Assembly: GCA_947626035.1 (NCBI GenBank) | Contig: CANQQR010000005.1 | Span: forward strand, 1 to 54,770 | Reading direction: 5' to 3' | Length of the DNA: 54,770 bases | From: an uncultured Bacilli bacterium | GTDB taxonomy: Bacteria > Bacillota_I > Bacilli_A > RF39 > UBA660 | Shown here: one piece after another, positions 1,971-7,680 of the stretch | How positions within the stretch are numbered: position 1 is the stretch's first letter | How the letters are laid out: the number at the start of each line of letters is the position of its first letter | Translations under genes and position numbers: made by a program | Notes under the pieces: generated by a model | Seen by the model: only the letters and a program-made list of their open reading frames with translations | The model's database searches: none | Told to the model about the DNA's origin: nothing

Positions 1971-1997
1971 AAAAAACATTGGGCATGCCAATGTTTT
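1971..1997 (-). terminator. Intrinsic terminator overlapping the end of surface gene A
   Basis: On the minus strand ACATTGG and CCAATGT form a stem around a short GC-containing loop and are followed by a T run. The stem begins at the stop codon of the gene ending at 1996. Confidence 0.8.
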
Positions 1998-4653
1998 AAT
2001 TTTCAGACTTTGCACATTTGCTTTCATTATTTAGTTCTACTACTTCATATGGGTCAGTTGATGCTCCACTTCCTGTTAATTCTACGCATGACTTTAGTGA
2101 GATTACTGGACGCACGACATTACCGACGTTACCTGAATAGGTGATACTGCTGAAACCCAAGCTGCCGGTACCGTTGGAACCGCCAACAACGAACACGTAC
2201 GCACGGCTATCACTACTGTTGAAGGAATATGGACTCATTGTCCACCACCAGTTTGTTCCTGTAGAGCTTTCTCCGGAATCATTCCTGTAGTAATAAACTG
2301 AACCATTTTTAATTTGAAAGAGACTACCTGCATATATTACTTCGTCTGCGGTCATCAAGCCTATTGGTTTATCTAAATCTCCATTTCCACCTGAAGATTC
2401 ACTTACACTAAACATATCTTTCTTTCTCTCTATGTCAGCAGAATTATTGTCTTTTGGATTATCATTTAATTTACCAGAACCATCTACACCACATTTGAAT
2501 GATGGATGGTTCTTTGTATTATTTGATTTATTAGTATTAAATTTTGTATAACCATTATAATACATTTCTCCACTATTTAGCCATTCTGTTTGTGTACTTC
2601 TATCATTACAATATATTGCTGTTTTACTTATATATTTATCATAGTCTTGCAAATTGCTTGCGTACCATGTTTCTAATTCCGTCTTTATTGGACTTGGTTC
2701 TTCATTTCCTCTTATTGCTGAAAGTGTACTTCCTGTACTGTACATATAACCTACATATGCTGTGTTATTAAAGTTATCTTTATTATATGCAAATTTCCCA
2801 TCACTTCCAATGTTTCCACTATTCATTATATATGCAGTTTCGCTTTCTGGGTTTTCTCCTGCATATAATAACCTTAATCCTCCATCTTCGTTTGTACGAA
2901 TTATTCTCCAATATTTATTTGCAAAATGAACCCAGTTATCTGTAGTATTTCCAACCCAATACCATACATTGTTTCCTCCCTCTGTATAATTACCATCTTC
3001 TTTATATACGTTACCATCAGTTACTATACTATTAAAACTATTTCTTTTTCCTGCATTTGCATATTTTGTTTCTCCTAAACTTCCAGCTGTTAATGGACAT
3101 TCTTTGATTACTTTATACGGATTATCTGCTGTTCCACTTCCATCCAAAGTTACACAGCCTTGGAGAGAAATTACTGGACGCACGACGGGAATCCCATTTA
3201 AGACAATTGAGGTATCCAACTCACCCAATTCTTCAGATTCGTAAGAACCAGCCACGGTGTGAACTAATGCGTAACTACCACTGAAATAACTTGGACTCAT
3301 TGTCCACCAATAATTTTCTCCGGTTACACTTTCTCCGCTAATATTTTTGTAATAGTAAACACTTTCATTTGTTCCCCAGCTCATGCCTCCCGCGTACACT
3401 ACTTCGTCTGCGGTCATCAAACCTATTGGTTTTGTTAACTTTCCATTTCCTCCTGAAGCATCACTAACACTAAATTTATCAGCAGTAGCTTGCTCATTTT
3501 CTACTAATTTACCGCTTCCATCTACTCCACATTTAAATGACGGGTGATTTTTTGTATTATCTTCTCCATTTGTATAGAATTTTGTAAAACTATTAAAATA
3601 CATTTCCTCACTTGGTTTCCATCCTGTTTGTGTACTTCTATCATTACAATATATTGCTGTTTGACTTATATACTTATCATAATCTTGCAAATTACTTGTA
3701 TACCATGTTTCTAATTCTGTTTTTATTGGACTACTTATTTCATTTTCTCTTATTGCTGATAATGTATCTCCTGTACTATACATATAGCCTACATATGCTG
3801 TGCTATCATCATTTTCATTATATGGAAATGCACCATCACTTCCAATGTTTCCACTATTCATTATATATGCTGTTTCGCTTTCTGGACTTTCTCCTGCGTA
3901 TAATAGTCTTAGTCCTCCATCTTCGTCTGACCTTATGATTCTCCAGTACTTATCTGCAAAATATACCCAGTTGTCTTCTACGTTTCCGGCAAAATAGTAT
4001 ACCGGTTTACTTCCTTCGGTATAGTTCCCATCTTCCATGTATACACTGCCTTCTGTTACTATGGTAGAGAAATCGTTTCTTTTCTTATTTAACTCTTCTT
4101 TTGTATATTTGGTTGTAAATAAGTCTTGGGCTAGGAATGGTTTATCTCCTTCACCTATAAATAATGTTCCACTTAATGTTGCTCCCATATCTTCACTTTG
4201 GTCTTCTGTTGTTGTTTCATAGATAAATTCTATTGTATATTCTTGTACTTCACTTGGTTCTATTTTTATATTTCCTGTTAAACTAATTTTTTTTGCTGTT
4301 TCTGATTTTGGTAATACTTCAAATTTGTCCATTGTGTAGCCATGTGAACTTGTTATTTTGTATTTTAAATAATCTGTTTTAAATGTATTAATTAGGTCTT
4401 TTATAATAATCTTATATTCATATGTTTCATTTGTTTCACTTGTAACAGTAAATGTTTTTTTATAAGTCCATCCAGGTTCTATGTTATTTGCTTCAATGTT
4501 TCCATTACCATCAAATGTTATTTTTAAGTCTTGTGCTGTTAGGTCTATTGGTGCACCATTACCTTCTATGTAAGCCATCCAGTAACCTAAACTTACACTA
4601 ACTGTTAAAATAAGTATACTTACTACCCCTATAATTAAATATTGTTTCTTCAT
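1996..4653 (-). CDS. Tandem variable surface protein A (TasA-like N terminus, two CLec-like domains)
   Basis: The 885-residue product starts with a signal anchor (about residues 5-25, ILILTVSVSLGYWMA). A beta-rich stretch to about 175 resembles TasA/camelysin-type proteins. Two homologous domains of about 330 residues follow. Each opens with a DNWV.F...YWRIIR..EDGGLRLLYAG block, has a Cys pair (YCNDRS and FKCGVDG), and ends WWTMSP ... VRPVISL, the layout of DUF6273-like C-type-lectin-fold proteins. Between the last two motifs lie variable cassettes at 3184-3291 and 2116-2229. ATG at 4653 is preferred to the ATG at 4680 because GAAGGG lies nine bases before it and paralogue B starts at the same residue. 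There is no LPXTG motif, so attachment would be by the N-terminal anchor. It is probably a ligand-binding adhesin; the ligand is unknown. Confidence 0.85.
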   Translation of the reverse strand: MKKQYLIIGVVSILILTVSVSLGYWMAYIEGNGAPIDLTAQDLKITFDGNGNIEANNIEPGWTYKKTFTVTSETNETYEYKIIIKDLINTFKTDYLKYKITSSHGYTMDKFEVLPKSETAKKISLTGNIKIEPSEVQEYTIEFIYETTTEDQSEDMGATLSGTLFIGEGDKPFLAQDLFTTKYTKEELNKKRNDFSTIVTEGSVYMEDGNYTEGSKPVYYFAGNVEDNWVYFADKYWRIIRSDEDGGLRLLYAGESPESETAYIMNSGNIGSDGAFPYNENDDSTAYVGYMYSTGDTLSAIRENEISSPIKTELETWYTSNLQDYDKYISQTAIYCNDRSTQTGWKPSEEMYFNSFTKFYTNGEDNTKNHPSFKCGVDGSGKLVENEQATADKFSVSDASGGNGKLTKPIGLMTADEVVYAGGMSWGTNESVYYYKNISGESVTGENYWWTMSPSYFSGSYALVHTVAGSYESEELGELDTSIVLNGIPVVRPVISLQGCVTLDGSGTADNPYKVIKECPLTAGSLGETKYANAGKRNSFNSIVTDGNVYKEDGNYTEGGNNVWYWVGNTTDNWVHFANKYWRIIRTNEDGGLRLLYAGENPESETAYIMNSGNIGSDGKFAYNKDNFNNTAYVGYMYSTGSTLSAIRGNEEPSPIKTELETWYASNLQDYDKYISKTAIYCNDRSTQTEWLNSGEMYYNGYTKFNTNKSNNTKNHPSFKCGVDGSGKLNDNPKDNNSADIERKKDMFSVSESSGGNGDLDKPIGLMTADEVIYAGSLFQIKNGSVYYYRNDSGESSTGTNWWWTMSPYSFNSSDSRAYVFVVGGSNGTGSLGFSSITYSGNVGNVVRPVISLKSCVELTGSGASTDPYEVVELNNESKCAKSEN
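2116..2229 (-). other. Hypervariable cassette A2 (C-terminal domain of protein A)
   Basis: The cassette is the 38 codons between the conserved AGT-CCA of WWTMSP and GTG-CGT of VRPVISL. Nineteen of the 38 codons end in C, while the host gene elsewhere strongly prefers A or T in that position (one C-ending codon in the first 35 codons of paralogue B). Flanks are conserved with the other three cassettes while the inside differs. This is the codon pattern left by adenine mutagenesis of AAC codons in diversity-generating retroelement targets. Confidence 0.65.
3184..3291 (-). other. Hypervariable cassette A1 (first domain of protein A)
   Basis: Thirty-six codons separate the same flanking motifs. 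Only 9 of 36 codons end in C, fewer than in the other three cassettes, and the stretch is richer in Glu and Leu. It still differs almost completely from its paralogues. It may be an older or no longer diversifying copy. Confidence 0.5.
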
Positions 4654-4678: not shown

Positions 4679-4706
4679 AAAAAAATACATAGAAAAACTC
4701 TATGTA
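4679..4706 (-). terminator. Attenuator-like hairpin upstream of surface gene A
   Basis: In the transcript TACATAG (4706-4700) pairs with CTATGTA (4692-4686) around a 7-base loop and is followed at once by seven T (4685-4679). It sits between the leader ORF and the ribosome binding site of gene A, so termination here would prevent expression of the gene. The copy at 7504-7531 is identical in stem and T run. Confidence 0.7.
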
Positions 4707-4743
4707 CTTTTAATCACAAAAAAACTATAAAGGTTATTTGTAG

Positions 4744-4797
4744 TTAACCCCCCCCGATTTGCAAACTAATGTTTTCGAAAGAGATTATTTTCTTCAT
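4744..4797 (-). CDS. Leader peptide ORF A with G8 tract
   Basis: The ORF encodes 17 residues, MKKIISFENISLQIGGG. AAGGAG (4815-4810) lies 12 bases before the ATG, a somewhat long spacing, and a consensus promoter lies just upstream. The last codons are a run of eight G (4748-4755 as C on the plus strand) directly followed by TAA. With nine G the frame would continue for 15 more codons and stop at TAG (4702-4700) inside the 5' arm of the attenuator hairpin. The same is true of the copy at 7569-7622. The peptide has no recognised function; its role is likely in cis through ribosome position. Confidence 0.55.
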   Translation of the reverse strand: MKKIISFENISLQIGGG

Positions 4798-4826
4798 AGT
4801 TTTCTTATTCTCCTTAATATAATTTA

Positions 4827-4855
4827 ATTATAGTTTATACTTTTGTTACTGTCAA
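4827..4855 (-). promoter_or_regulatory. Consensus sigma-70 promoter of surface gene A
   Basis: TTGACA (4855-4850), a 17-base spacer and TATAAT (4832-4827) match the consensus exactly on the minus strand. Transcription would start near 4820, about 23 bases before the leader ORF. Confidence 0.9.
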
Positions 4856-4876: not shown

Positions 4877-7480
4877 TCAATTATCTTTTGTTGCACATGA
4901 ATCTGAATTACCAATTTCTACTACTTCATATGGGTCATCTGATTTACCGGTACCAGATAACTGAACACAAGATTTCAGAGAAATTACAGGACGCACGGTG
5001 CCACTCGAAGAGCCGACGTAGTTGCTGTCCAAAAAACTAGCGATGCTATAACTCACGTAGAATACGTACGCGTGGTCGAAGAGGCCGAGGAAGCGATACG
5101 GACTCATCGTCCACCATCGGTTTGTACCTGTTGGGCTTCCTCCGGAAGCGTTCCTATAGTAGTAAACAGAGTCGTTATTAGTTTGGTATAATCCTCCAGC
5201 AAATATTACTTCATCTGCGGTCATCAAACCTATTGGCTTTGTTAGTTTTCCATTACCACCAGACGCTTGACTTACACTAAATTTATCTTTTGTTCCCTCT
5301 GCACCTGTCGAATCACTATTTTCCTTTCCTGTTCCATCTACACCACATTTAAATGATGGGTGATTCTTCGAATTATCTAATTTATTTGCATTGAATTTTG
5401 TATAACCATTGTAATCCATTTCTCCACTTGATTTCCATCCTGTTTGTGAACTTCTATCATTACAATATATCGCTGTTTTACTTATGTATTTATCATAACT
5501 TTGCAAATTACTTGTATACCATGTTTCTAATTCAGTCATTATTGGACTTGGTGTTCCATTTCCTCTTATTGCTGATAATGTATCTCCTGTACTATACATA
5601 TAACCTACATAGGCTGTATTATCATAATTATCTTTATTATATTCAAATAGTCCATTACTTCCAATGTTTCCACTGTTCATTATGTATGCTGTTTGACTTT
5701 CTGGACTTTCTCCTGCATACAATAGTCTAAGTCCTCCGTCTTCGTTTGTTCTTATTATTCTCCAATATTTATCAGCAAAATGTACCCAGTTATCGGTAGT
5801 ATTTCCAGCCCAGTACCATACTTTACTTCCATTTTCTGTCCATTTATCATCTTCTGTATATACATTACCATCAGTTACTATACTATCAAAGCTACTTCTC
5901 TTACCTGCACTCGCATATTTTGTTTCTCCTAAACTTCCAGCTGTTAATGGACATTCTTTTATTACTTTATATGGATTATCTGCTGTTCCACTTCCTTCCA
6001 AAGTTACACAGCCTTTTAGGGAGATTACTGGACGCACGACGCCATTCGAAGCGTTGCCGATTGTGCCGAGCAACTGACCTGCGCTGCTAGAACCGCGAAC
6101 AATGAACACGTACGCGCTGCTGCTGAAGTAACACGGACTCATTGTCCACCACGTGTTTGAACCTGTTGAGCTTCCTCCGGAAGCGTTTCTATAGTAGTAA
6201 GCAGAGTCGTTATTAGTTGTAAATAAACCTCCAGCGAATATTACTTCGTCTGCAGTCATCAAGCCTATTGGCTTTGTTAGGGCTCCATTACCACCAGACG
6301 CCTTGCTTACACTAAATTTATCTTTTGTTCCCTCTGCACCTGTTGAATCGCTATTTTCTTTTCCTGTTCCATCGACTCCACATTTGAATGATGGGTGGTT
6401 ACCTGAAGAACTTGTTTTATTTGTGTAGAATTTTGTATAACCATTGTAATACATTGTTCCACTACTTGCCCATCCTGTTTGGGAACTTCTATCATTACAA
6501 TATATCGCAGTTTTACTTATATATTTATCATAACTTTGTAAGTTATTTGCATACCATGTATCTAATTCTGTTTTTATTGGACTAGGTGTTCCATTTCCTC
6601 TTATAGCTGATAATGTATCTCCTGTACTATACATATAACCTACGTATGCTGTGTTATTGCGGTTATCTTTATTATATGCCATTGTACTTATATATGCATC
6701 TTCAGCTGTTGGGCTACTTCCAGCATATAAAAGTCTTAATCCTCCATCTTCGTCTGACCTTATGATTCTCCAGTAGTAGTTTGCAAAATATACCCAGTTG
6801 TCTTCTACGTTTCCTGCAAAGTAGTATACTGGTTTACTTCCTTCGGTGTACGCACCATCTTCCATGTATACACTGCCTTCAGTTACTATTGTAGAGAAGT
6901 CATTTCTTTTCTTATTTAACTCTTCTTTTGTATATTTTGTTGTAAATAAATCTTGTGCTAGGAATGGTTTATCTCCTTCACCTATAAATAATGTTCCACT
7001 TAGTGTTGCTCCCATGTCTTCGCTTTGGTCTTCTGTTGTTGTTTCATAGATAAATTCTATTGTATATTCTTGTACTTCACTTGGTTCTATTTTTATATTT
7101 CCTGTTAAACTAATTTTTTTTGCTGTTTCTGATTTTGGTAATACTTCAAATTTGTCCATTGTGTAGCCATGTGAACTTGTTATTTTGTATTTTAAATAAT
7201 CTGTTTTAAATGTATTAATTAGGTCTTTTATAATAATCTTATATTCATATGTTTCATTTGTTTCACTTGTAACAGTAAATGTTTTTTTATAAGTCCATCC
7301 AGGTTCTATGTTATTTGCTTCAATGTTTCCATTACCATCAAATGTTATTTTTAAGTCTTGTGCTGTTAGGTCTATTGGTGCTCCATTACCTTCTATGTAA
7401 GCCATCCAATAACCTAAACTTACACTTACTGTTAAAATAAGTATACTTACTACCCCTATAATTAAATATTGTTTCTTCAT
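4877..7480 (-). CDS. Tandem variable surface protein B (TasA-like N terminus, two CLec-like domains)
   Basis: This 867-residue paralogue of protein A is nearly identical over the first 175 residues: signal anchor at about 5-25, then the TasA/camelysin-like beta-rich part. Two DUF6273-like domains follow (about 190-515 and 520-867), each with the YWRIIR..EDGGLRLLYAG block, the YCNDRS and FKCGVDG cysteines, the GLMTADEV motif and the WWTMSP ... VRPVISL frame. Cassettes at 6038-6133 and 4997-5098 vary completely between these last motifs. The ATG at 7480 follows GAAGGGAAGAAAGTT. The gene has its own promoter, leader and hairpin (7504-7680), and its 3' end runs into the control region of gene A. 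The expected place is the cell surface with the lectin-like domains outside; ligand unknown. Confidence 0.85.
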   Translation of the reverse strand: MKKQYLIIGVVSILILTVSVSLGYWMAYIEGNGAPIDLTAQDLKITFDGNGNIEANNIEPGWTYKKTFTVTSETNETYEYKIIIKDLINTFKTDYLKYKITSSHGYTMDKFEVLPKSETAKKISLTGNIKIEPSEVQEYTIEFIYETTTEDQSEDMGATLSGTLFIGEGDKPFLAQDLFTTKYTKEELNKKRNDFSTIVTEGSVYMEDGAYTEGSKPVYYFAGNVEDNWVYFANYYWRIIRSDEDGGLRLLYAGSSPTAEDAYISTMAYNKDNRNNTAYVGYMYSTGDTLSAIRGNGTPSPIKTELDTWYANNLQSYDKYISKTAIYCNDRSSQTGWASSGTMYYNGYTKFYTNKTSSSGNHPSFKCGVDGTGKENSDSTGAEGTKDKFSVSKASGGNGALTKPIGLMTADEVIFAGGLFTTNNDSAYYYRNASGGSSTGSNTWWTMSPCYFSSSAYVFIVRGSSSAGQLLGTIGNASNGVVRPVISLKGCVTLEGSGTADNPYKVIKECPLTAGSLGETKYASAGKRSSFDSIVTDGNVYTEDDKWTENGSKVWYWAGNTTDNWVHFADKYWRIIRTNEDGGLRLLYAGESPESQTAYIMNSGNIGSNGLFEYNKDNYDNTAYVGYMYSTGDTLSAIRGNGTPSPIMTELETWYTSNLQSYDKYISKTAIYCNDRSSQTGWKSSGEMDYNGYTKFNANKLDNSKNHPSFKCGVDGTGKENSDSTGAEGTKDKFSVSQASGGNGKLTKPIGLMTADEVIFAGGLYQTNNDSVYYYRNASGGSPTGTNRWWTMSPYRFLGLFDHAYVFYVSYSIASFLDSNYVGSSSGTVRPVISLKSCVQLSGTGKSDDPYEVVEIGNSDSCATKDN
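4997..5098 (-). other. Hypervariable cassette B2 (C-terminal domain of protein B)
   Basis: Of 34 codons, 21 end in C, including a run of eight successive NNC codons (CGC to CAC) right after the first variable codon. Flanking codons are conserved with the other cassettes. It is the clearest of the four NNC signatures and also visibly GC-rich against the AT-rich surroundings. Confidence 0.7.
6038..6133 (-). other. Hypervariable cassette B1 (first domain of protein B)
   Basis: Of 32 codons, 17 end in C. The cassette is two codons shorter than B2 and six shorter than A2, so the four do not descend from one template by substitution alone. Conserved WWTMSP and VRPVISL codons flank it. Confidence 0.65.
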
Positions 7481-7503
7481 AACTTTCTTCCCTTCTTAAA
7501 CGC

Positions 7504-7531
7504 AAAAAAATACATAGAAAAACTCTATGTA
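7504..7531 (-). terminator. Attenuator-like hairpin upstream of surface gene B
   Basis: TACATAG (7531-7525) pairs with CTATGTA (7517-7511), followed by seven T (7510-7504), between leader ORF and the gene B start. Stem, loop and T run equal those of the copy at 4679-4706, although the 30 bases before it have diverged. Confidence 0.7.
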
Positions 7532-7568
7532 CTTATGTGCATTAAAAAACTATAAAGGTTATTTGTTG

Positions 7569-7622
7569 TTAACCCCCCCCGATTTGCAAACTAATGTTTT
7601 CGAAAGAGATTATTTTCTTCAT
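7569..7622 (-). CDS. Leader peptide ORF B with G8 tract
   Basis: It encodes the same 17 residues as the leader at 4744-4797, with the same upstream CTCCTT complement (ribosome site) and the same eight-G run (7573-7580) before TAA. A +1 change would open a 32-codon frame ending at TAG (7527-7525) inside the hairpin. The extended frame differs from copy A at several codons, yet stays open over the same 16 codons after the tract. Confidence 0.55.
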   Translation of the reverse strand: MKKIISFENISLQIGGG

Positions 7623-7651
7623 AGTTTTCTTATTCTCCTTAATATATTTTA

Positions 7652-7680
7652 ATTATAGTTTATACTTTTGTTACTGTCAA
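7652..7680 (-). promoter_or_regulatory. Consensus sigma-70 promoter of surface gene B
   Basis: TTGACA (7680-7675), 17 bases, TATAAT (7657-7652) on the minus strand, identical to the gene A promoter. Confidence 0.9.

Follow-up and report, generated by a model that had tools for sequence, protein, structure and literature searches.

Gene A, which encodes a predicted exported protein, is preceded by a short leader that probably acts as a slippage-driven phase switch, in which translation across a G tract would control a transcription attenuator. The window, i.e. the whole stretch of 54,770 nt from contig CANQQR010000005.1 that was analysed, contains two G8 tracts versus 0.07 expected, and both lie inside such leaders (copies A and B). 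All elements of the gene A switch are encoded on the minus strand, in the interval separating gene B (4877..7480) from gene A (1996..4653):

4827..4855, minus strand: promoter of copy A, with TTGACA at 4855-4850, a 17-nt spacer and TATAAT at 4832-4827; 12/12 consensus, conserved in copy B
4809..4815, minus strand: leader ribosome-binding site AAGGAGA, from the sequence
4744..4797, minus strand: leader ORF MKKIISFENISLQIGGG, 17 codons in the G8 form, with ATG at 4797-4795 and TAA at 4746-4744; frame conserved in diverged copies
4748..4755, minus strand: G8 tract, 42 nt 3' of the leader ATG
4700..4743, minus strand: extension that is in frame for the G9 and G6 forms only; its stop, TAG at 4702-4700, lies in the 5' arm of the hairpin
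4792..4803, minus strand: 5' arm of helix P1, including the leader ATG, from a duplex and cross-pairing test
4721..4732, minus strand: 3' arm of helix P1, from the same test
about 4679..4710, minus strand: terminator-like hairpin with U-run, from folding (-11.6 kcal/mol); stem kept elsewhere with paired changes
1996..4653, minus strand: gene A, start ATG at 4653; predicted exported protein of 885 aa that has two variable regions

The coordinates and most parts agree with the original prediction, which had named a perfect TTGACA-17-TATAAT promoter (confirmed at 4855-4827) and a terminator-like hairpin between leader and gene. The latter is supported by both sequence and folding, with termination itself being predicted; it is absent from a generic terminator scan because its stem has fewer than three G-C pairs. 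The leader was also said to end in eight Gs directly followed by TAA. The tract is indeed at the leader end, which reads GGG GGG GGT TAA, so that a single T separates the two. When the frames were recomputed, nine or six Gs added 15 codons to the copy A leader and placed the stop at the TAG in the 5' arm of the hairpin, as had been proposed, while the G7 form stops 11 nt past the tract.

Copy B precedes gene B and is 95% identical to copy A over 177 nt:

7500..7680, minus strand: whole switch of copy B, from sequence comparison with copy A
7680-7652, 7622, 7580-7573, 7571-7569 and 7527-7525, minus strand: respectively the promoter, ATG, G8 tract, TAA and ON stop TAG of copy B
4877..7480, minus strand: gene B, predicted exported protein of 867 aa; alignment with gene A gives 79% identity

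According to the proposed mechanism, RNA polymerase would initiate from the consensus promoter, with a ribosome translating the leader. With G8 (the OFF state), the ribosome would stop 37 nt 5' of the hairpin, which would then form and presumably end transcription. When the tract sets the third frame (the ON state, given here by G9 or G6), the ribosome would enter the 5' arm of the hairpin, where the ON stop lies, and hold it open; in some copies it would run fully through the hairpin. The surface gene would be transcribed once translation of the leader keeps the hairpin open in this way, a step which we infer. Replication slippage in the G tract would flip each copy at random and independently, the tract presumably changing length within the population. 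When the ribosome was mimicked by a mask during folding, the probability of the terminator stem was 0.99 at the OFF stop and 0.00 at the ON stop, a value that is forced by the mask alone, so this result illustrates the geometry.

Next, the leader was followed through the genus, in which G000 denotes the genome of the window and the other G-numbers further genomes of the same genus. A BLAST search matched the leader at 13 places in G000, some of them cut by contig ends, and a pattern search added a copy on contig C3 (G000:C3) with a leader sequence unrelated to the others. Leader tracts number 12 in G000, i.e. 12 of the 16 G8 tracts of that genome, and the total over six genomes of the genus, G000 included, is 47. 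Across 386 genomes of the family, the tract-plus-hairpin pattern gave matches in this genus only, and the reversed control gave none. An incidental G tract was rejected, given the 12 leader tracts in one genome and the conservation of the frame. A search of viral contigs and phages with the leader gave no match, and a contig scan with protein A retrieved one distant relative in a genome of an uncultured Bacilli bacterium. Identity among most G000 copies is 84-95%, and several contig breaks fall within a copy. The promoter and upstream sequence vary among copies; the leader and hairpin are kept, and so is, in nearly all copies of the genus, the GGAGA core of the ribosome-binding site.

Based on the assemblies, which give a single length per locus, 43 of the 47 tracts are G8 (12/12 in G000), two are G7 (G004:C18 and C89) and two are G9 (G002:C30 and C77). 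Paralogues and species thus differ in tract length. The constancy of G8 (43/47) nevertheless counts against the switch model. In its strict form, as an argument that the tract does not switch, it was dropped in view of the G7 and G9 paralogues and of copies that are already in the ON frame.

The reading frames provide further support. In the main type of leader, the distance from ATG to tract is 36, 42 or 48 nt and that from the tract to the hairpin TAG is 36, 42 or 45 nt; all are multiples of three, indicating that indels on both sides of the tract kept the frame. For complete copies of the main type in G000, G002 and G004, a stop closes the G8 and G7 frames within 17 nt, and the frame given by G9 is open as far as ACA TAG (or GCA TAG) in the 5' arm of the hairpin. 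In G005 and G008 the open frame crosses the hairpin, with several G008 copies reaching or passing the start of the next gene. Seven of eight dissimilar post-tract sequences have one frame open to the hairpin and the other two closed within 17 nt, a pattern found in 6-23% of shuffled controls for each. Since the copies share ancestry and the tests are not independent, these statistics are to be taken as support and do not give a clean probability.

Of the assembled copies, four have the ON frame. Two of these are the G9 paralogues of G002, C30 and C77; the leader of the latter is matched from an AATCTCT motif to the tract by that of G002:C61, a G8 copy at a different locus. In the other two, G000:C3 and G008:C20, the ATG lies at a different distance from the tract, so that G8 already gives the ON frame. 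In G000:C3, with its unrelated leader, 38 nt precede the G8 tract and the stop is at the hairpin TAG. As this distance varies among the G008 copies, the ON length would be 7, 8 or 9 Gs depending on the copy (the case needing nine, G008:C140, was read by eye), and the extension frame (YYRLNKSFIFLHTRTHS and kin) is constant despite these differing ON lengths. The same plan is kept by other leaders of unrelated sequence (G008:C1, G008:C6, G002:C1). One exception is G000:C14, where the first leader ORF ends before the tract. The parts, their frames, the conservation across the genus and the differences in tract length between paralogues are thus evident in the sequence. Attenuation by tract length, as originally proposed, is the best-supported reading, to which the frame-keeping indels, the one-open, two-closed frames, the G7 and G9 paralogues and the ON-frame copies can now be added. 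What had been missed is a second conserved helix, P1.

P1 pairs the leader start region, including the ATG, with the RNA just 3' of the tract. The leader RNA folds better than 200 of 200 shuffled sequences (z about -5), and folding indicates that the G8 tract is able to pair with UCUCUUUC. RNAalifold applied to the leader set gave only this G8:UCUCUUUC helix because the leader lengths differ. A test of duplexes between the arms showed that other lineages rebuild P1 from different sequences. The cognate arms of G000:C3 reach -13.2 kcal/mol, versus -5.6 to -10.3 kcal/mol for its 5' arm with the 3' arms of other leaders, and the cross-pairing result is clear for G000:C3 and for G002 versus G000/G004. 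The P1 arms of G008, G001 and G005 pair equally well or better with some non-cognate arms, and the co-variation is not clean in every lineage. As a guess, P1 could restrain repeated initiation on the leader while the switch is OFF; it is the least explained part, and its role, which the switch model leaves unexplained, counts against that model.

The strongest rival explanation, although rather unlikely, is non-genetic slippage on a fixed G8 tract, either by RNA polymerase or as a -1 shift of the ribosome at GGG GGG GGT. A fixed fraction of events would then enter the ON frame and set a low level of expression. This would fit the tract length of eight in 43/47 copies, and an open extension frame would be expected here too. 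However, paralogues with G7 or G9 are found, no slippage is required for G000:C3 and G008:C20 to be in the ON frame, the G008 copies need different lengths, and further G8 tracts are located in promoter spacers, independent of any reading frame. The ON-frame copies and the G8-G9 tracts in promoter spacers would therefore speak for slippage at the DNA level. The leader and its gene might also serve as recombination cassettes, in which identical leaders allow gene exchange or conversion and the tract is simply carried along. The high identity of most G000 copies and the contig breaks within them are in line with this. Yet promoters and upstream sequences differ where leader and hairpin are kept, and the frames persist in copies too diverged for recombination, making it very unlikely indeed as the main function, even if it is compatible with the switch model.

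Two further explanations assign the tract a role in sensing. A structured leader RNA responding to a protein or ligand, with G8 serving structure or binding and an ORF that is incidental, would account for the strong folding, the re-formation of P1 with different sequences and the pairing of G8 with UCUCUUUC. It is very unlikely, since the ORF frame survives indels, unrelated leaders lose UCUCUUUC but keep G8 and the frame, and the terminator stem shares no arm with P1 or the G8 helix. Moreover, no match at the gathering level of Rfam was found in the window, the snoRNA matches being at chance level only, and a riboswitch or known RNA family was rejected on this basis. Classical amino-acid attenuation, in which the ribosome stalls on three Gly codons when charged glycine tRNA is scarce, is suggested by the Gly-Gly-Gly end of the leader (GGG GGG GGT), but a ribosome stalled there leaves the hairpin, 37 nt off, free to form. 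Folding gave no antiterminator sharing the terminator arms, and it is for want of such a competing helix that this explanation was rejected. In addition, the downstream genes mostly encode surface proteins rather than glycine metabolism, and some copies (G000:C3, G008) have just two full Gly codons, so glycine sensing must be regarded as extremely unlikely.

Switching by slippage in the DNA might not be limited to the leaders. Other G8-G9 tracts of the genus lie within promoter spacers of about 18 nt (TTGACA-N10-G8-TATAAT and similar). The promoter spacer is a classic site of slippage switching, and, placed as they are before other genes, many of which encode exported proteins, these tracts resemble classic phase variation by spacer length. 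A family-wide search for such spacers gave one match outside the genus. The promoter spacers with poly-G are:

G004: C3:18198 and 19179 (L210), C9:588 (L211), C22:7862 and 9718 (L212, L213), C94:2889 (L214)
G008: C70, C99, C106, C118 (L217-L220)
G002 and G005: G002:C12, C17, C24 (L222-L224); G005:C4 (L226)
G007: C4, C6, C23, C121 (L230-L232, L234)

Poly-G tracts of G8 to G10 were also observed in coding sequences, at G006:C14:13347 (L229), G005:C90:2802 (L228), G004:C1:29136 (L209) and G000:C14:19125 (L208). At the G006 tract (G9), the frame breaks soon after and another frame is open for more than 700 nt, as might be seen in a coding-tract switch in its OFF state.

Regarding mismatch repair, no full match to MutS1 was found in the genome of the window, an absence that is uncertain as this genome is 92.5% complete; a partial match at G000:C49:3579-4394 is perhaps MutS2. 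A full MutS is encoded by five relatives, including G004, G008 and G001, which carry the same leaders, so missing mismatch repair is no general explanation. MutS in these relatives would keep slippage of a tract as short as G8 low, and this counts against the switch model.

The genes downstream of the leaders mostly encode proteins with an N-terminal membrane segment that are predicted to be exported. At their C-terminal end, many of these carry one or two variable regions of the type WWTMSP...VRPVISL, and proteins A and B have two such hypervariable regions each. The genome of the window has about 25 copies of the variable repeat, which differ strongly from one another at fixed codons. It also encodes a reverse transcriptase of the diversity-generating retroelement (DGR) type (LPIGNMTSQ, with the IGNMTSQ motif), adjoining an Avd match (E value 5.6e-8) that falls short of the curated cut-off of the Avd model. 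In G004, the same RT/Avd cassette adjoins a leader-driven target. Loci listed with a variable-region or DGR observation are L178 (G000:C71) and L169 (G004:C9). No DGR template repeat was found in the stretches inspected, nor did a pattern search match one, and action of the DGR on genes A and B is for this reason put no higher than likely.

The only ON-frame copy of the window's genome, G000:C3, precedes an ORF whose product has no N-terminal membrane segment:

G000:C3:74300-76200 (L155): 593-aa ORF (MKELEYPFNSDYII...)

Another G8 tract (G000:C3:73428) lies about 0.9 kb upstream of this copy, within a long ORF. The chances are about even that the genus as a whole runs many independent poly-G attenuators, each of them gating its own exported protein with a retroelement-rewritten binding face, and that P1 adds an undescribed layer of control. 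Which protein is displayed and which target it binds would in that case be randomised by two separate DNA mechanisms.

Poly-G slippage is known to switch surface genes in Neisseria, Bordetella and Campylobacter, where the tract lies either within the gene or in the spacer of a promoter; here it is part of a separate leader ORF and would act through a terminator. In attenuators of the trp/his type, the position of the ribosome on a short leader decides whether the terminator forms, and tRNA charging is sensed via competing hairpins, whereas in the present leaders the position of the ribosome would be set by the reading frame in the DNA. In Bacillus subtilis pyrG, poly-G in the leader RNA is tied to attenuation, as low CTP causes extra Gs to be incorporated at the 5' end of the transcript; the tract described here is DNA-encoded within an ORF.

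The original prediction knew of no described system of this kind. This did not hold: according to Danne et al. (2014; PMC3894217), the same design operates in Streptococcus gallolyticus pil1 and pil3 with GCAGA repeats in the leader ORF, whose number sets the frame and the leader end. There, 39 bp (pil1) or 33 bp (pil3) separate the end of the OFF leader from the terminator, compared to 37 nt here, and longer leaders let transcription pass, as proven by mutants and sorted variants (PMC3894217). This precedent lends weight to the switch model for the present leaders. The two systems also share a short leader ORF that lies between promoter and gene and has a ribosome-binding site of its own, an ON leader ending in or after the hairpin, a regulated surface structure and an OFF state at most loci. 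They differ in the repeat, a pentamer (22 and 13 repeats) versus a single G tract, in the number of loci, two versus about a dozen per genome, in P1, for which no counterpart is reported in the available text, and in the evidence, experimental there and from sequence alone here. In the searched literature, with most subscription papers outside coverage, there was no second example of phase variation by leader peptide and terminator. The working principle is therefore already known from S. gallolyticus; new here are the homopolymer tract, the deployment in many copies throughout a genus of uncultured Bacilli, the conserved helix P1 and the hypervariable DGR-type targets.

If the switch model is true, this would be the second case of leader-peptide/terminator phase variation, in a distant lineage and with the simplest possible repeat. 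It would show that the leader-attenuator design can be copied genome-wide as a standard switch for a family of surface proteins, and it would become testable how random on/off switching of genes can follow from the position of the ribosome alone. It would also link two ways of generating surface diversity in uncultured bacteria.
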